The position numbers were made by a program, and so were the translations under genes. The notes beneath the pieces are model-generated. The model was not told the DNA's origin. It worked only from the letters and a program-made list of their open reading frames with translations, and searched no databases. From NCBI RefSeq assembly GCF_036967205.1, contig NZ_CP146022.1, positions 7,564,001 to 7,628,000 on the forward strand: DNA of 64,000 nucleotides, in the 5' to 3' direction. This document shows positions 47,531-56,372 of the stretch, one piece after another (within the stretch, counting starts at the first letter, position 1; each line of letters begins with the position of its first letter). The DNA is from Streptomyces sp. Q6. GTDB lineage: Bacteria > Actinomycetota > Actinomycetes > Streptomycetales > Streptomycetaceae.

Positions 47531-49108
47531 CTATGCGGGCGAGCCGGTGGCGGTGGCCGCGTCCTGTCGGCGGAGCTCGGGTTTGACCACCTTGCCGCCC
47601 GCGTTCCGGGGAAGCTCGGGGACCACGACGAGGTCCTTGGGCCGCTTGAACGAGGCGAGCCTTCCGTCGAGGAAATCCGTCAGCTCGGGCAGGGACAGTT
47701 CGGTTCCCGGCGCCACGGTCACGTACGCGACCGGGACCTGGCCCCAGCGTGCGTCGGGCCTGCCGATCACGGCGACCTCCCGCACGGCCGGGTGGGTGGC
47801 GACGGCGTTCTCCAGCTCGGCGCAGTAGATGTTCTCGCCGCCACTGATGATCATGTCCTTGGCGCGGTCGACGACCCAGACGAAGCCCTCCTCGTCCTGC
47901 CTGACCAGGTCGCCCGAGTGGAACCAGCCGCCCGCGAAGGCCTGCGCGGTCTCGCGCGGCTTCTGCCAGTACCCCCGTGTCACGGTGGGCCCCCGGTAGA
48001 CGATCTCGCCGACCTCGCCCACGGGGACGTCGTTCATGGCGGCGTCGACGATGCGGTACTGGATGCTCGGGACAGGCCGCCCGACGGAGCCGAGCTTGCG
48101 CAGTGAGTCCTCGCCGCGGAGCACGCAGGTGATCGGCGAGGTCTCGGTCTGGCCGAACACGGCCACGTTCAGCGCGCCCGGGAACCTCTCGCCCATGGCG
48201 CGCAGCGTCGCGTCGCTCGCGGGCGCGGCACCCCAGCTGATGATCCGCAGCTTCAGGTCGCGTTTGTCGATGTCGGGCTGGGCGCAGATCAGGTCCCACT
48301 GCTGCGGGACGTTGAAGACGACGGTGGCGCCCTCGCTCTCGTACGCGTCGAGCACCGCCCGCGGGTCGAAGGCGCCCAGCGGATGGAGCACGACCGTACT
48401 GCCGACCACGAAGTTCGCCACGATGGAACCCAGGCCCGCGATATGGAAGAAGGGCGCCGTCAGGAAGCCGACGTCGGAGTCGTCGAAGATCTCCATCGCG
48501 CGGATGCAGGTCATCGCCTGGACCTGCATGTTGCGGTGGGACAGCAGCACCCCCTTGGGGCGTCCGGTGGTGCCGGAGGTGTACATGATCAGCGCGGTCG
48601 ACTCCTCGCTGATGTCGGGCAGTTCCATGGGCTCGTACGCCGACAGGAAGTCCTCGTACGCCAGATCGCCCTCGGCCGGGTCCGCCGCGTCGACGACGAC
48701 GACCGTGCCGATGCGCGCGGCGTTCGGCGCCGCCCGGAGCAGCGGTACGAGCCGGGCGTCGACGACGATCGCCGACGGTGCGCAGTCCTCCAGGATGTGG
48801 TCGAGCTCCAGCGGCGCGAGCCGGAAGCTGAGCGGCACGGCCATCGCCCCCAGGCTGTTCGCCGCGAGGACGCTCTCCACGAACCAGGGGTGATTGAGCG
48901 TCAGCAGGGCCACGCGGTCACCCGCGGCGACGCCCCGGTCGGCGAGCCCGGCGGCCAGTCGCAGGGACCGCCGCGACAACTGCGCCCAGGTCGTGGTCCG
49001 TCCGAGATGGCGCAGCGCGGGCTTGTCCGGGCGGGTCTGCGCGTGGGTGGCGACCTGGGTCATCCAGTGGTTCCTGAAGGACCAGGCGGGCGCCGTGTCG
49101 GCCGGCAT
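47531..49108 (-). CDS. Acyl-CoA synthetase (long-chain fatty acid / oligo-isoprenoid acid type)
   Basis: 525 residues from ATG at 49108, with GAGGAG 6 bases upstream on the minus strand. ANL superfamily motifs: ALIMYTSGTTGRPKGVLLSH (P-loop), GQTETSP, GWFHSGDLVRQDEEGFVWVVDRAKDMIISGGENIY and the C-terminal PRNAGGKVVK lysine. It activates a carboxylic acid with CoA and ATP. It is divergent from a TetR gene and lies in the cluster with lcp, aldehyde dehydrogenase and acyl-CoA dehydrogenase genes, so the substrate may be oxidised rubber fragments; that is inference. The shared 19-base motif lies about 90 bases upstream of its start. Confidence 0.87.
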   Translation of the reverse strand: MPADTAPAWSFRNHWMTQVATHAQTRPDKPALRHLGRTTTWAQLSRRSLRLAAGLADRGVAAGDRVALLTLNHPWFVESVLAANSLGAMAVPLSFRLAPLELDHILEDCAPSAIVVDARLVPLLRAAPNAARIGTVVVVDAADPAEGDLAYEDFLSAYEPMELPDISEESTALIMYTSGTTGRPKGVLLSHRNMQVQAMTCIRAMEIFDDSDVGFLTAPFFHIAGLGSIVANFVVGSTVVLHPLGAFDPRAVLDAYESEGATVVFNVPQQWDLICAQPDIDKRDLKLRIISWGAAPASDATLRAMGERFPGALNVAVFGQTETSPITCVLRGEDSLRKLGSVGRPVPSIQYRIVDAAMNDVPVGEVGEIVYRGPTVTRGYWQKPRETAQAFAGGWFHSGDLVRQDEEGFVWVVDRAKDMIISGGENIYCAELENAVATHPAVREVAVIGRPDARWGQVPVAYVTVAPGTELSLPELTDFLDGRLASFKRPKDLVVVPELPRNAGGKVVKPELRRQDAATATGSPA

Positions 49109-49197
49109 GGGCGACTCCTCGGGTCTGGTGGCGATGGGTGGTCGCTGCCGCATCATCCCGCCCAACACCGCGGCGGGAGAAGCGTCGTGCAGCAATT

Positions 49198-49216
49198 TGT
49201 TAATGGAGAATCACAT
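49198..49216. promoter_or_regulatory. Shared operator-like motif TGTTAAT-N4-AATCACAT (copy 1)
   Basis: Located between the divergent acyl-CoA synthetase and TetR genes. Fifteen fixed bases around a 4-base spacer match the motif over the lcp promoter exactly. Reverse-complemented, it forms an imperfect inverted repeat ATGTGATT-N4-ATTAACA, as expected of a TetR operator. It is strikingly AT-rich for this genome. Confidence 0.7.
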
Positions 49217-49331
49217 GGGGCGCGGTCCGGGACCCGCTGCTCCGCGGTCGTTCCCGAGTGATCGGGGAGCGCGCGGCGGCGTGTGATTGACTGGGCCGCA
49301 TGGTCCCGTCCCCGTGTGCGTCCGACCGGTC

Positions 49332-50525
49332 ATGACGGCCGAGTCGATCTCGGTCGCGCGCCCCCGCAACCGGAAGCAGCTGATCGTCGACGCGGCGGGC
49401 CGGCTGTTCAGCGAGCGCGGGTACCACGCGGCGTCCATGGAGGACATCGCCGCCGCCGTCGGGATCACCGCCGCGGCCCTGTACCGGCACTTCCCGAACA
49501 AGTACGCGCTGTTCGCCGCGTGCACGCGGACCATGGTGGACCGGCTCGTCGCCGCCCTCGACGCACTGCCGCCCGAGACGCCCGCCGCGGACGTGCTGAC
49601 CGCGCTGATCCGGGTCACGGTCGCGCACCGGACGTCGGGCGGCGTGTACCGGTGGGAGGCCAGGTATCTCGTCCGCGAGGACCGGCTGCTGCTCAAGGAG
49701 AAGTTCGGGCAGGTCGTCGAGCGGGTCACCGAGGCGGTGCACCGTGAGAACGGGAGGCCCCGCGATCCGCTGCGGGCCGTGGCCGCGCTCGGCGCCATCG
49801 GATCCCTCACCATGCACCGCACCTCCATCGCTCAACGCCGGGTCGAGGAACTGCTGTCGGCCTGCGCCCTGCGCGTGGCCGCGACCGGTCCGGCCCGGAG
49901 CGGACCCGCCCCGACCGGTCCCGGACCGGACGCCCGGGAAGCGCGCGCCGTCGAGCTGCCGGCCCTGCCGGTGCCGCGCTCGCGGCGGGCGGAGATCCTC
50001 GCGGCCGCCGTCCCGCTGTTCGCCCGGGACGGGTTCACCAGCGTCACGAACGGCCAGATCGCCGAGGCGGTCGGCATCGCCCCGTCCGCGCTCTACCGGC
50101 ACTACCCCGGCAAGGTCGACATCCTCGCGGCGGCGTGCCTCCAGGCGGCCGGGCTGCTGGCCCAGGCGGTGGACCGCAGCCTCGACGGCGTGGACGATCC
50201 GCACGAGGCCGTCGCCGTGCTGGCGGCGACGTACGTCGCGTACAGCTTCGAGCACACCGCGCTGACGAGCGTCGCCGAAGCCGAGTTCGTCGGCCTGCCG
50301 GCGGATCTCCAGCGCCCTCTGGTGCAGGCGCAGCGCGAGCACATCGCGGTGTGGGAGGAGCAGTTGCGGCTGGCCCGCCCGGACCTCGACCCGCGGCAGG
50401 CCCGGGTCCTTGTGCACGCGGGGTTCGGTGTGGTGGTCGAGGCCGGACGGCGGCTCCGCTGGCGGGACGGCCCCGACCACCGTGCCCTGGTGACCCGCCT
50501 GGTCGTGGCGGCTCTCGGGCTCTGA
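49332..50525 (+). CDS. TetR regulator with two TetR DNA-binding domains
   Basis: 397 residues from ATG 49332, twice the normal TetR length. Two TetR helix-turn-helix domains are seen: KQLIVDAAGRLFSERGYHAASMEDIAAAVGITAAALYRHFPNK near residue 15 and AEILAAAVPLFARDGFTSVTNGQIAEAVGIAPSALYRHYPGK near residue 225, each followed by a helical ligand domain. The two halves are joined by a Pro/Ala-rich linker. The gene is divergent from the acyl-CoA synthetase gene and convergent with lcp. TetR regulators are known beside lcp in other rubber degraders. It probably represses the cluster until a degradation product binds. Confidence 0.88.
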   Translation: MTAESISVARPRNRKQLIVDAAGRLFSERGYHAASMEDIAAAVGITAAALYRHFPNKYALFAACTRTMVDRLVAALDALPPETPAADVLTALIRVTVAHRTSGGVYRWEARYLVREDRLLLKEKFGQVVERVTEAVHRENGRPRDPLRAVAALGAIGSLTMHRTSIAQRRVEELLSACALRVAATGPARSGPAPTGPGPDAREARAVELPALPVPRSRRAEILAAAVPLFARDGFTSVTNGQIAEAVGIAPSALYRHYPGKVDILAAACLQAAGLLAQAVDRSLDGVDDPHEAVAVLAATYVAYSFEHTALTSVAEAEFVGLPADLQRPLVQAQREHIAVWEEQLRLARPDLDPRQARVLVHAGFGVVVEAGRRLRWRDGPDHRALVTRLVVAALGL

Positions 50526-50532
50526 GGACGGC

Positions 50533-51738
50533 TCAGGACGGCCTGTTGCCCGTCGGGATGACGATGCGGGTGGTCGTCGGCGAGGTGCCCCGGTTCAGAA
50601 ACAGCATGGCCAGCGCGCGGACGAACTGGTCGAACAGGTAGAACGCGCCGGGGACGACGGGCGACAGGCCCTCGCGGAACAGGATGAAGGCCGGCCACGC
50701 GGTACGGATCAGGGTCGCCGACGCGTAGTCGCGCTTGAGCCCCAGCCAGTCACCGACCTCGTCGTTCAAGACGTAGCGCACGAACTCGTTGAGGAATCCG
50801 CGGGTGACACCGAGGTCGACCTGGGCGGTCAGCCCCAGCAGATCCTCGGCCAGTTCCTTGCCCTCGGGCGTCGGCGTGAGGATCGGGGTGAGCACCTGAC
50901 CCGACTGGGCCTCCGCCTCGGCCCACGACGCCGGGATGTACTCGTCGCGTACGCCGAGCAGATGCAGGGCGACCTGCCAGCTGTGCAGGAACGCCTCCTG
51001 GTCGGCGGCGGGGAACGGGACCTTCCAGTCGAGCAGCTTCCTGCGGACGAAGGTGCCCAGGCTGTGGAAGGTGACCAGGATGTCCGCGTTGCTGATCGGG
51101 ATCTCCTGGTCCGTGACCGCCCGCCATTGGGGCGACCGCGGCAGCAGATGACGCACCCCGGCGTGCACCAGACGCGTCTTGTTGGCCGTCACCACGAACT
51201 GCCCCGACGGTTCGAAGCCCTTCAGCTGGGCCAGGTCGTAGCCGAACGTGAAGGTCTTCGCGGCCCGGTCCTGCATGTCGGCGCCGCCCGCCGACCAGTA
51301 GACGCTCCTGGCCTCACGCGGGATCACCGTGCTCATGATCCCGCTGCCGAGGCCGTAGAGCACGAAGAGGTAGGTGTCCTTGCGCCGGTTGAAGTCGGCG
51401 GCACGGGCCAGCTTCACCGGATCCGCCCAGTCGGGCAGCTTGTTGACCGTCCGCAGGTACGCGGTGAGGTCGGCCGGCAGTCCGGTGGGCAGCGGGTCGC
51501 CGTTGTTCACCCACGACTCCATCGCGGTGTTGACGGCGGGCACCTGACCGCTGTCGATGAGCGAGGCCACCAGGCGGTCCACCTCGTCGTCCCACACGTA
51601 CTCCGGATCGACGCCCGCACCCGCTCCGGCGACCGAGCCCGACGGCGACCACGCCCAGGCGGTCCCGGTGCCCGCCGCGCTCGCGAGGCCCAGCGCGGCC
51701 CCCAGTGACAGCATTCTTCTACGGCTGAGATTACTCAT
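50533..51738 (-). CDS. lcp: Latex clearing protein, secreted heme rubber oxygenase
   Basis: 401 residues from ATG at 51738. It starts with a Tat signal (LSRRRMLSLGAALGLASAAG), as in Lcp of Streptomyces sp. K30 (407 residues). The key residues reported for that enzyme are found with a constant offset of six: Arg158, Lys161 and Thr162 (DRAAKT), Arg189 and His192 (RLVHAG, heme ligand) and Arg196. The fold is the DUF2236/MpaB-type b-heme domain. Lcp cleaves cis-1,4-polyisoprene outside the cell into fragments with aldehyde and ketone ends. The neighbours (aldehyde dehydrogenase, acyl-CoA synthetase, acyl-CoA dehydrogenase) fit later steps. No oxiAB genes are adjacent. Confidence 0.88.
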   Translation of the reverse strand: MSNLSRRRMLSLGAALGLASAAGTGTAWAWSPSGSVAGAGAGVDPEYVWDDEVDRLVASLIDSGQVPAVNTAMESWVNNGDPLPTGLPADLTAYLRTVNKLPDWADPVKLARAADFNRRKDTYLFVLYGLGSGIMSTVIPREARSVYWSAGGADMQDRAAKTFTFGYDLAQLKGFEPSGQFVVTANKTRLVHAGVRHLLPRSPQWRAVTDQEIPISNADILVTFHSLGTFVRRKLLDWKVPFPAADQEAFLHSWQVALHLLGVRDEYIPASWAEAEAQSGQVLTPILTPTPEGKELAEDLLGLTAQVDLGVTRGFLNEFVRYVLNDEVGDWLGLKRDYASATLIRTAWPAFILFREGLSPVVPGAFYLFDQFVRALAMLFLNRGTSPTTTRIVIPTGNRPS

Positions 51739-51833
51739 TCACTTGCTCGCTTTCCTGGTAGGACGTGCGGCTCATCACGCCTTGTTCTGCTCGGTGTTGG
51801 CGTCGCCAGCACGGTTGAAGAGCTTGTTCCAGG

Positions 51834-51852
51834 ATGTGATTTTTGATTAACA
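51834..51852. promoter_or_regulatory. Shared operator-like motif (copy 2), over the lcp -10 box
   Basis: On the minus strand this reads TGTTAAT-CAAA-AATCACAT, identical outside the 4-base spacer to the motif at 49198-49216. It overlaps the proposed lcp -10 box, the position expected for repression. Confidence 0.72.
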
Positions 51853-51877
51853 TAGCGAGGCGCGTCGCCGTCGACAA
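51849..51877 (-). promoter_or_regulatory. lcp promoter (-35 TTGTCG, -10 TATGTT)
   Basis: On the minus strand TTGTCG (51872-51877) and TATGTT (51849-51854) are spaced by exactly 17 bases, about 110 bases before the lcp start. It is an AT-rich patch in a GC-rich region. Confidence 0.6.
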
Positions 51878-51954: not shown

Positions 51955-53598
51955 ATGACCACCGATCAGGACCAGACCCCCGCCCCGCCGGGCCCCGCGG
52001 CGGCGGGCTCGCGGCCCGCCTGGGTGACCGACGAGGCCATCGCGCGATGGTGTGCGTGGGTGTGCCGGGACGTGTCGCGACAGGGGGCCGAGGGCGGGGG
52101 AGGCGCCGGACCGGTGGCCGTCGCGGTCGCGCCGTTCGACCTGACGCCGATCGCCACCGTCCCCGCCTGTACGCCGGAGGATGTCGTGGAGGCGGTGACC
52201 GGTGCCCGTGCCGCACAACCGGCCTGGGCGGAAAGGGAGTCGAGGCGTCGCGGCGACGTGGTCCTCGCCTTCCACGACCTGCTCCTGGAGCGACAGGAGC
52301 AGGCGCTCGACCTGATCCAGTGGGAGACGGGCAAGGCCCGCTACCACGCCTGGCAGGAGGTGGCCCAGGTCGCGACGATCGCCCGGCACTACGCGCGCCG
52401 CGCCCGCCACTACCTGGCCCCCCGCCGTGTACGCGGGATGGTGCCCGGCCTGACCAGGGTCCAGGAGGTACGGGTGCCGAAGGGCGTCGTCGGCGTCATC
52501 TCCCCGTGGAACTACCCCCTCTACCTCGGCGTCGGCGACGTCCTGCCCGCGCTCCTGGCCGGCAACGCCGTGGTCTCCAAGGCGGATTCCCAGACCGCGC
52601 TGACCCTGCTGTGGACGCGGGCCCTCATGGCGGAGGCCGGACTGCCGGCCCAGCTGTGGCAGATCGTGACCGGGTCCGGGGCCGTGGTGGGGACCGCCCT
52701 GGTCGACTCCGTCGACTTCGTCTGCTTCACCGGGTCGACGGCGACCGGACGCGCCGTCGCGGAGCGCGCCGCGCGCCGGCTGGTCGGGGCCTCGCTCGAA
52801 CTCGGCGGCAAGAACCCGCTGATCGTGCGCGAGGACGCCGACCTCGCCGCCGCGGCGGCCGGCACGGCCGTGGCGGCCTTCGCCAACACCGGCCAGATGT
52901 GCATCCACATCGAGCGCGTCTACGTCCACGAGAAGGTCTACGACGCCTTCCGCGCCGAACTCGTCCGCGCCACACAGGCGTTGCGGCTCGGACGGTCCTA
53001 CGACTACGCGGCCGACGTCGGATCACTGACGTCGGCGGCGCGGCTCGCGGAGGTCGCCGCGCACGTCGACGGCGCGGTGGCCAAGGGGGCGACGGTCCTC
53101 ACGGGTGGCCGGGCCAGGACCGACATCGGCCCGCTCTTCTACGAACCGACCGTCCTCGAAGGCGTCACGCCGGAGATGCCCGTGTGGGACCAGGAGACCT
53201 TCGGCCCGGTCCTCTCGCTCGCCTCCTACGCCACCGACGAGGAAGCCGTGGCGCTGGCCAACCAAGGGACGTACGGCCTGTCGGCGTCGGTCTGGTCGAA
53301 GGACGTCCGCGCGGCCGGCCGGATGGCCGGCCGGATCCGCGCCGGATCGGTCAACATCAACGACGGCGCCGCCGCGGCGGCCGGAAGCATCGAGGCGGGC
53401 ATGGGCGGCACGGGAGACAGCGGACTCGGCAGGCGCCACGGCGTCGAGGGCATCCGCAAGTACACCGAGAGCCGGACGGTCGCCACCCAGCGCCTGATGC
53501 CGCTCGGACCGCCGAAACCGGGTGAGAGCGCCGTGCGGGGTTTCGTGAATCGGACCAACAGCCAACTGGCCCTGCTGCGTCGGCTGGGGGTCCGATGA
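51955..53598 (+). CDS. Aldehyde dehydrogenase (succinate-semialdehyde dehydrogenase-like) of the rubber cluster
   Basis: 547 residues from ATG 51955, with GAGGAG upstream. NAD(P) aldehyde dehydrogenase motifs are complete: VISPWNYPLYLGVGDVLPALLAGNAVVSK, FTGSTATGRAVAERAA, LELGGKNPLIV with the general-base Glu, NTGQMCIHIER with the catalytic Cys, and QETFGPVLSLASY. It resembles the GabD2-like group. It is divergent from lcp and coupled by overlap to a DUF4334 gene and an alcohol dehydrogenase gene. It could oxidise the aldehyde ends of Lcp products to acids, the role of OxiAB in strain K30; this is inference. Confidence 0.87.
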   Translation: MTTDQDQTPAPPGPAAAGSRPAWVTDEAIARWCAWVCRDVSRQGAEGGGGAGPVAVAVAPFDLTPIATVPACTPEDVVEAVTGARAAQPAWAERESRRRGDVVLAFHDLLLERQEQALDLIQWETGKARYHAWQEVAQVATIARHYARRARHYLAPRRVRGMVPGLTRVQEVRVPKGVVGVISPWNYPLYLGVGDVLPALLAGNAVVSKADSQTALTLLWTRALMAEAGLPAQLWQIVTGSGAVVGTALVDSVDFVCFTGSTATGRAVAERAARRLVGASLELGGKNPLIVREDADLAAAAAGTAVAAFANTGQMCIHIERVYVHEKVYDAFRAELVRATQALRLGRSYDYAADVGSLTSAARLAEVAAHVDGAVAKGATVLTGGRARTDIGPLFYEPTVLEGVTPEMPVWDQETFGPVLSLASYATDEEAVALANQGTYGLSASVWSKDVRAAGRMAGRIRAGSVNINDGAAAAAGSIEAGMGGTGDSGLGRRHGVEGIRKYTESRTVATQRLMPLGPPKPGESAVRGFVNRTNSQLALLRRLGVR

Positions 53599-54077
53599 AC
53601 CACGTACACGCGAAGTGGCAGGCGCTCCGCGCGGCGCGAGGGCCCGTCGATCCGGCCGAACTGGACGATCTGTGGGCGCAGTTGGAGGTTGTCGACGCTG
53701 CGTCCGTGCTCGGCTCCTGGCGCGGCTTCGCCTTCCGCACCGGCCACCCCGTCGAGAAGATGCTCGGCGCGAGCCGGTGGCACGGCAAGCGGTTCGATGC
53801 CCTCGACTCCGCCCAGCCGCTGATCTGCCGGGCCGAGGACGGCACCCTCTACTCCGACACCGCGGCGGGCCACGGCGAGGCCAGTCTGTGGAACGTCGAG
53901 TTCCGGGGCGAGGTGACCGCCACGATGGTCTACGACGGCATGCCGGTGCTCGACCACTTCAAGCGCGTGGACGAGCACACCCTCATGGGCGTGATGAACG
54001 GCAGGCCCGACGTCGTCCTCGCGCGGGGCGGGTACTTCTACTTCGGTCTCGAGCGCGAAGACCCGGACTCCGCGTGA
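53595..54077 (+). CDS. DUF4334 (GXWXG motif) protein
   Basis: 160 residues from ATG 53595, overlapping the aldehyde dehydrogenase stop by 4 bases. It contains the GXWXG motif (VLGSWRGFAF) near residue 40 and the DUF4334 core (GKRFDALDSAQPLICRAEDG, then FRGEVTATMVYDGMPVLDHFKRVDEHTLMGVMNG). The fold is thought to be a small beta-barrel; function is not known. Its position between two oxidoreductases suggests a lipophilic-substrate or product-binding role. Confidence 0.82.
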   Translation: MNHVHAKWQALRAARGPVDPAELDDLWAQLEVVDAASVLGSWRGFAFRTGHPVEKMLGASRWHGKRFDALDSAQPLICRAEDGTLYSDTAAGHGEASLWNVEFRGEVTATMVYDGMPVLDHFKRVDEHTLMGVMNGRPDVVLARGGYFYFGLEREDPDSA

Positions 54078-55208: not shown

Positions 55209-56372
55209 ATGACGCGTGCGATCTTCACCGAACGAGCCCTGTACGACGACGACCACGAACTGCTGCGCAAGACCGTGCGCGCGTTCGTCGACAAGCACGC
55301 GGCGCCGCACGCCGAGCGGTGGCGGGCGGCGGGCAAGGTCGACCGCACCCTGTTCCTGGAGGCCGCGCGGGCCGGGATCCTCGGCTTCAACATCCCCGAG
55401 GAGTACGGCGGCGGCGGGATCACCGACTTTCGCGTCAACGCCGTGATCGGCGAGGAGTTCTCCCGCCACCCCGCGTCCGACGGCCTCGCCGGGGTCGGCC
55501 TCTCCAACGACATCGTCGTGCCCTACTTCACCGACCTGACGAACGACGAGCAGAAGGCGCGCTGGCTGCCCGGCATCGCCGCGGGCACGCACATCGTGGC
55601 CGTCGCGATGACCGAGCCCGGCACCGGCAGCGACCTGGCCGGCATCGCCACCACGGCCGTGCGCGACGGCGACGCGTACGTGGTCAACGGCAGCAAGGTC
55701 TTCATCTCCAACGGCCAGAACGCCGACCTGGTCGTCACCGCCGTACGCACCGGCCCCGACCGCCACGGCGGACTCAGCCTGCTGGTCGTCGAGGCCGACC
55801 GGCCCGGGTTCTCGCGCGGCCGCAACCTGGAGAAGGTCGGCCTGCACGCCCAGGACACCAGCGAGCTGTTCTTCCAGGACGTGCGCGTGCCGACCGCCAA
55901 CCTGCTCGGCGAGGAGGGCTCCGGGTTCCAGGCCCTGATGCGCAACCTCCCGCAGGAGCGGATCTCGATCGCCGCCAACGCCCTGGCGTCCATCGAAGGC
56001 GTCCTGGAGCGGACCGTGGAGTACGTCCGGGAGCGCAAGGCGTTCGGCCGGAGCATCGGATCCTTCCAGAACACCCGCTTCCAGCTGGCCGACATGGTCA
56101 CCACCGCACGCGTGGGCCGCACCTACATCGACGACCTGCTCGCGCGGCACTCCCGCGGCGAACTGAGCGCGGTGGACGCCGCGGCGGCCAAGTTCTGGGC
56201 CACGGAGAACTACGTCGACATCGTCGGACGCTGCCTCCAACTGCACGGCGCCTACGGCTACATGCTCGAGTACCGCATCGCGCACGACTACCTCGACTCG
56301 CGCATCACCACCATCTACGGAGGGACCACGGAGATCATGAAGGAGATCGTGGCGCGCGATCTGGGGCTGTAG
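55209..56372 (+). CDS. Acyl-CoA dehydrogenase, long-chain/isovaleryl type
   Basis: 387 residues from ATG 55209. FAD motifs: MTEPGTGSDLAGI, VNGSKVFISNGQNADLVV, RKAFGRSIGSFQNTRFQLADM and LHGAYGYMLEYRIAHDY. The C-terminal motif is IYGGTTEIMKEIVAR, where the medium-chain enzymes have Glu; Gly here is the long-chain and isovaleryl type, in which the base lies on another helix (candidate LERTVEY near residue 270). That type accepts long or branched acyl-CoA, fitting isoprenoid substrates. It lies 64 bases after the alcohol dehydrogenase. Confidence 0.88.
   Translation: MTRAIFTERALYDDDHELLRKTVRAFVDKHAAPHAERWRAAGKVDRTLFLEAARAGILGFNIPEEYGGGGITDFRVNAVIGEEFSRHPASDGLAGVGLSNDIVVPYFTDLTNDEQKARWLPGIAAGTHIVAVAMTEPGTGSDLAGIATTAVRDGDAYVVNGSKVFISNGQNADLVVTAVRTGPDRHGGLSLLVVEADRPGFSRGRNLEKVGLHAQDTSELFFQDVRVPTANLLGEEGSGFQALMRNLPQERISIAANALASIEGVLERTVEYVRERKAFGRSIGSFQNTRFQLADMVTTARVGRTYIDDLLARHSRGELSAVDAAAAKFWATENYVDIVGRCLQLHGAYGYMLEYRIAHDYLDSRITTIYGGTTEIMKEIVARDLGL

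Follow-up and report, generated by a model that had tools for sequence, protein, structure and literature searches.

The operator of LcpRB, a double-TetR regulator of lcp, the gene for latex clearing protein (rubber oxygenase), was reportedly first studied by Coenen et al. 2019. LcpRB of S. coelicolor A3(2) binds 5'-TATGTTAATGAAAAATCACA-3' upstream of lcp (PMC7413915), and its operator, for which footprinting is mentioned, is given as TATGTTAAT-N2-AAAATCACA, with 15 bases at least 90% conserved in twelve strains that carry LcpRB and lcp (PMC8235351). Another double-TetR protein, ACTI_69510 of Actinoplanes sp. OR16, carries one TetR-type domain per half, and its authors suppose an origin by duplication (PMC7413915, Gibu et al. 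2020); what is attributed here to these two papers and to PMC11667970 comes from the parts of them that were available. A site with 15 fixed bases, TGTTAAT-N4-AATCACAT, occurs twice in a 64,000-nucleotide stretch of the Streptomyces sp. Q6 genome (NZ_CP146022.1, positions 7,564,001 to 7,628,000; the whole stretch is called the window), once between lcp and a divergent aldehyde dehydrogenase gene and once between an acyl-CoA synthetase gene and the gene of a double-TetR regulator (tetR). Both sites are very probably operators of this LcpRB-type protein, which is encoded between them and would repress lcp and the aldehyde dehydrogenase gene and add the synthetase to its regulon.

Two Operator Copies in the Window

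A preliminary description of this DNA had reported the pair of sites at the positions and on the strands listed in Table 1, differing in the spacer alone, and direct matching in the window agrees with it: the fixed bases are the same in both copies (15/15) and the spacers are GGAG and CAAA. The half-sites TGTTAAT and TGTGATT match at 5 of 7 positions, so that the inverted repeat is imperfect, as described there. Scanning the window, which has a G+C content of 72.4%, at up to three mismatches returned these two copies only, and dinucleotide shuffles of the window (n = 100, same threshold) gave a mean of 0.01 matches per shuffle, with two matches in none. Across the 8,951,745-base genome the exact copies are again these two; nothing else lies within two mismatches, a single three-mismatch site is found at 2204378, and a control search with the pattern read backward had no match. 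The earlier judgement that a chance match is unlikely thus holds, and the genome-wide search for unrelated exact matches that it proposed found none.

The lcp copy (TATGTTAATCAAAAATCACAT), whose first base lies 114 bp ahead of the lcp start, fits the published TATGTTAAT-N2-AAAATCACA, and because the motif is the published LcpRB operator, this copy is already known. In the synthetase copy, TT rather than TA precedes TGTTAAT, and the 15 fixed bases are the same. The suggestion that both copies are candidate operators of the double-TetR protein is supported: the match to the published operator and the tracking of double-TetR-linked lcp genes speak for it. It needs refining in two respects, the operator at lcp having been known before and the copy at 49198 going with the synthetase, not with tetR. 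The gene context given at that time also needed amendment, in that the lcp intergenic region is divergent toward the aldehyde dehydrogenase gene and the synthetase most likely starts with the ATG at 49108.

Linkage of the Operator to lcp and Double-TetR Genes

Lcp genes were surveyed by a protein search of 384 genomes of the same genus, without selection for the motif; 43 genomes were positive, giving 65 rows, and all 65 upstream regions were inspected. Double-TetR genes were surveyed in the stretches fetched around these lcp genes. The site is present in 37 of the 65 rows, with zero or one mismatch, on the lcp strand and with its first base 106–128 bp before the aligned lcp start. The stretch fetched around 36 of these 37 contains a double-TetR gene, the contig of the remaining one (L194) ending early, and every lcp gene with a double-TetR gene in its fetched stretch has the site (36/36). 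At the other 28 rows the best match has at least five mismatches, and no double-TetR gene occurs within the fetched stretches, which are short (3.5–5.8 kb). These site-less lcp genes form a separate clade, with 46–56% identity to the window Lcp, and both kinds coexist in 11 genomes. Two of the 37 site-bearing rows (L152 and L196) encode Lcp just 57–60% identical, with the site still present, and the site is also found at an lcp locus of genome G386 (L181) that was reached through the motif and not in the survey. The double-TetR homologue of S. violaceorubidus (L094) is 74% identical to the window protein.

In scans led by the motif, 37 of the exact matches listed for the genus (n = 38) precede either lcp or the synthetase; the remaining match stands before another operon in genome G346. 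A scan of the order with TGTTAAYNNNNAATCACRT found 45 sites in 39 of 392 genomes, partly the same as those of the genus scan; each of the sites precedes lcp or the synthetase, and there was no backward match. In the class, 9 of 394 genomes had a match, and three of the five outside the genus are at lcp. A collection scan returned at least 119 loci: 26 hold lcp, one (L068) ends right beside the site, where an equally long contig (L181) does have lcp, and the other 92, mostly low-G+C organisms by title, are without any of six query genes; all 23 Streptomyces and Kitasatospora loci among the matches listed fall in the lcp group. The exact site before lcp, together with a double-TetR gene, also occurs in Actinoplanes, Mumia, Nocardioides and Yinghuangia loci, and conservation in relatives, proposed earlier as a check, is accordingly strong across Streptomyces and into other genera. 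At up to two mismatches, the genus scan gave a forward match in 127 genomes and single backward-control matches in 11 of 392; because the control matches at this threshold, only sites with zero or one mismatch were taken as operators outside the gene-anchored sets. For locating rubber-degradation genes in high-G+C Actinomycetes, the 15-base site is a specific marker.

Promoter Anatomy and Proposed Regulation

In the 70 lcp copies compared after dropping three duplicate loci, the site always begins within TATGTT, a putative −10 box, and TTG lies 17 bp upstream in 67, consistent with the earlier placement of the lcp copy over the −10 box. In the divergent direction, TTG stands 18 bp upstream of TAACAT at 16 of 19 loci with a divergent aldehyde dehydrogenase or acyl-CoA dehydrogenase gene and at 4 of 51 without one; at 19 bp the counts are 0/19 and 8/51. 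Because both putative −10 boxes share operator bases, one bound protein would cover both. At the synthetase, none of the 18 copies shows a promoter of this kind spanning the site. A candidate −10 box (CATAAT, CACAAT or similar, a pattern chosen post hoc from the alignment) lies 29 bases past the site at 7 loci and 40–41 bases past it at 11, so that the operator centre falls close to −51 or −62, two positions separated by roughly one helical turn; because the loci form two related groups, this spacing amounts to two events at most.

In the proposed mechanism, one chain of the regulator would fold as a pseudo-dimer with two differing helix-turn-helix domains, each reading its own half (TGTTAAT or TGTGATT). 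On the lcp copy, the protein would cover TAACATA, where the putative −10 boxes of lcp and of the divergent aldehyde dehydrogenase gene both lie, so that one site would repress both transcripts. Release would be brought about by a rubber-derived ligand, perhaps an oligo-isoprenoid aldehyde, acid or CoA ester. The same protein on the other copy, upstream of the synthetase promoter, would bring the synthetase into the regulon, whether through blocking, looping or activation. The known lcp switch would thereby be extended to a pathway regulon, with rubber cleavage, aldehyde oxidation and acyl-CoA activation on one operator.

Several points weigh against this proposal. Because the two kinds of lcp are different clades, linkage and ancestry are partly confounded. 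An other-type lcp (51% identity) in genome G487 (L244; also L117, an equally long contig of Streptomyces sp. NBRC 110468) has the exact site in the same promoter layout, with no double-TetR gene in its 10-kb stretch and the genome's own tetR locus elsewhere; it is an exception to the absence of the site from the surveyed other-type genes (0/28) and is possibly under control in trans. One lcp of genome G786 (68%) likewise has the site, with no double-TetR gene in 7 kb, and two of the five class-scan matches outside the genus are not near lcp. The label LcpRB-type comes from comparison with the published description of S. coelicolor LcpRB. The OR16 regulator bound an lcp1 promoter for which its authors report no such site (PMC7413915), so specificity may be wider. 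A sigma-70 consensus scan gave no promoter here, the boxes being a consensus reading, and the −10 box of the window synthetase (GATGAT) is poor.

A variant retains repression of lcp and the aldehyde dehydrogenase gene and gives the one asymmetric operator the opposite job at the synthetase, where the protein would activate or would loop to the lcp site 2.6 kb away. The position of the synthetase site, which hints at activation or looping better than at simple blocking, lends this variant some credit, and we regard it as possible although doubtful.

Assignment of the Second Copy

Judged by the genes it accompanies, the copy at 49198 belongs to the acyl-CoA synthetase and not to tetR. At the loci of the lcp survey, the site lies upstream of 10 of 10 synthetase genes, with 0–2 mismatches; it is found at 9 of 9 tetR genes with an adjacent synthetase and at 0 of 28 without one, where the best match has at least four mismatches. 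Separate loci found through the motif, mostly via the lcp copy, agree (6/6 with a synthetase, 0/14 without). In G346 (L158), the synthetase keeps the site though tetR is about 12 kb off, and tetR there is without it. Autoregulation is common among TetR genes, and at 17 of 17 labelled loci the site centre does lie 81–145 bp ahead of tetR and on the same strand as that gene, as would suit an autoregulatory operator of tetR itself. However, this explanation is improbable, given the 28 double-TetR genes that have neither an adjacent synthetase nor the site, the G346 site that stays with the synthetase, and a conserved leader box that tetR has of its own in 65 of 66 loci.

The leader box reads approximately TGTGRTTGACTGnnCCGCATGG, lies shortly before tetR at 49282–49303 (+), occurs in clusters with and without the synthetase and includes the TGTGATT half-site; it may be the promoter of tetR or a control element. 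The count of 65/66 refers to its core, G[AG]TT[GC]ACT, picked post hoc, within 200 bp upstream. At five synthetases (L196, L242, L251, L254 and L259), a CACAT box seen by eye directly precedes the operator (TTCACAT-3-ATGTGATT, or nearly), and it is a possible third half-site.

G346 also carries a third exact copy (L158 2238–2256), before a row of alcohol dehydrogenase, acyl-CoA dehydrogenase, thiolase and hydroxyacyl-CoA dehydrogenase genes. This copy is promoter-like (TTGCCC-18-TAACAT) and resembles the aldehyde dehydrogenase promoter. The row looks like a beta-oxidation operon, which in that genome would have its own operator copy.

Operator Asymmetry and the Double-TetR Fold

The half-sites TGTTAAT and TGTGATT differ at two positions, and at both the difference is kept in all 48 copies compared (37 at lcp and 10 at the synthetase, all from the lcp survey, plus L181). 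The regulator consists of two TetR units in one chain, predicted to form one pseudo-dimer, and a fixed asymmetry is what a single-chain double TetR of the Mce3R kind would be expected to require.

A reading of the motif as part of a promoter, namely an extended −10 for a sigma factor, is very improbable, even though its left half lies within TATGTT, a good −10, in all 70 lcp copies: the AATCACAT half varies about as little, the synthetase copies carry TTTGTT and lack TTG at both 17 and 18 bp on both strands (0/18) while still preserving the 15 bases with few changes, and footprinting of LcpRB on the sequence is reported (PMC8235351). Slighter still is the case for a CRP-type site, TGTGA-N6-TCACA, serving carbon control; the half TGTGA is in common and Gordonia rubber genes are reported with a CRP site TGTGAN6TCACT (PMC8235351), but the spacing is TGTTA-N8-TCACA in both window copies and 91 listed copies, the left half is TGTTA in 91/91, and the site tracks the double-TetR gene. 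Chance or functionless shared ancestry is barely credible, although the clusters are inherited, so that the loci are not independent, and although the collection scan also has exact matches in many unrelated, mostly low-G+C genomes with no cluster gene nearby. Only 0.01 matches are expected in the window, the 15 nearly invariant bases surround a spacer with 14 sequences in 38 lcp copies, and by eye the sequences flanking the lcp copy and the synthetase copy bear no relation to each other, so that neither was copied from the other's promoter.

Gene Cluster and Other Sites

The double-TetR and lcp genes lie between the two sites, and the synthetase and aldehyde dehydrogenase genes flank them outside (Table 1).

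Table 1. Genes, operator copies and candidate promoter boxes in the window.
Feature	Position	Strand	Remarks
Acyl-CoA synthetase, AMP-binding	47531..49108	-	Closest NCBIfam model FadD5, score under its cut-off
Candidate synthetase -10, weak, GATGAT	49152..49157	-	CACAAT/CATAAT in most relatives
Candidate synthetase -35, TTCTCC	49176..49181	-	18-bp spacing; TTCT/TTCC box in 17/18 loci, none in L192
Second operator copy, TGTTAATGGAGAATCACAT	49198..49216	+	Synthetase/tetR intergenic; read as acyl-CoA synthetase operator
Double-TetR regulator, 397 amino acids, LcpRB-type	49332..50525	+	Two TetR_N domains
lcp, latex clearing protein (rubber oxygenase)	50533..51738	-	PF09995
Putative aldehyde dehydrogenase operon -35, TTGTTC	51824..51829	+	18-bp spacing
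First operator copy, TGTTAATCAAAAATCACAT	51834..51852	-	Between lcp and aldehyde dehydrogenase gene; the published LcpRB operator
Putative divergent aldehyde dehydrogenase operon -10, TAACAT	51848..51853	+	Overlaps operator
Putative lcp -10, TATGTT	51849..51854	-	Overlaps operator; 70/70 lcp copies
Putative lcp -35, TTGTCG	51872..51877	-	17-bp spacing; TTG here in 67/70
Aldehyde dehydrogenase	51955..53598	+	First gene of divergent direction
GXWXG/DUF4334 protein	53595..54077	+	Same direction, overlaps end of aldehyde dehydrogenase gene
Acyl-CoA dehydrogenase	55209..56372	+	After the DUF4334 protein gene

At the three-mismatch site of the genome (L003 1501–1519, TGTTCAAGGAGAATGACAT), nearby open reading frames resemble, by eye, a TetR regulator and a thiolase. 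Three recurrent near-miss families of the genus scan (1–2 mismatches) were rejected, none being near lcp, with gene labels read by eye from translations: TGTTAAC..GATCACAT beside a phoD-like gene (4 loci inspected), xxTTAATGTG..AATCACAT beside a membrane/PBP-like gene (8 loci) and TGTTCATCGG..AATCACTT within an open reading frame resembling a deacetylase gene (3 loci). Nine further loci with 1–2 mismatches (L183–L191) were also set aside, all six query genes being absent. In many Streptomyces, TGTTAAC-N4-GATCACAT recurs between the phoD-like gene and another conserved gene; the four loci inspected are L136, L141, L142 and L144, and the motif is also listed in G041, G346, G386 and others.

Comparison with Known Systems

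LcpR of Gordonia polyisoprenivorans VH2 is likewise a TetR-type lcp regulator, but it is of another TetR type, described as a dimer, and its palindromes are longer and different (PMC7413915, PMC8235351). ACTI_69510 is closer, being a double-TetR protein that shifts lcp3 upstream DNA with TATGTTAATGGAAAATCACA (PMC7413915); it differs in its binding to the lcp1 promoter, noted above, and no synthetase operator was met in the available part of that paper.

Mce3R of Mycobacterium tuberculosis (PDB 9b7y) shares the two-TetR single-chain architecture over the full length, with 30% identity in the structural alignment, and its asymmetric operator is read by two non-identical helix-turn-helix domains (PMC11667970). 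Unlike the present regulator, it controls mce3 and lipid genes, and its operator region comprises two 25-bp sites 53 bp apart (PMC11667970). Dimerisation of chains via helix 15, with possible bridging of two operators, belongs to the picture of Mce3R-like double TetRs. The Mce3R authors report the first structure of a single-chain double TetR reading DNA (PMC11667970). The invariant asymmetry described here offers a direct test of how such proteins read DNA.

The available parts of PMC7413915 and PMC8235351 and a literature search gave no mention of a synthetase operator, which Coenen et al. 2019 may contain. As far as its sequence goes, the system belongs to the LcpRB type of regulon already described. 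It shares with LcpRB a double-TetR regulator of lcp and an operator with 15 conserved bases in the lcp promoter, and it differs in the second operator at the acyl-CoA synthetase and in the lcp site, which also covers the putative divergent aldehyde dehydrogenase promoter. As far as the literature examined shows, three features are new: the operator at the synthetase, the −10 region common to the divergent promoters and the unvarying asymmetry of the half-sites.
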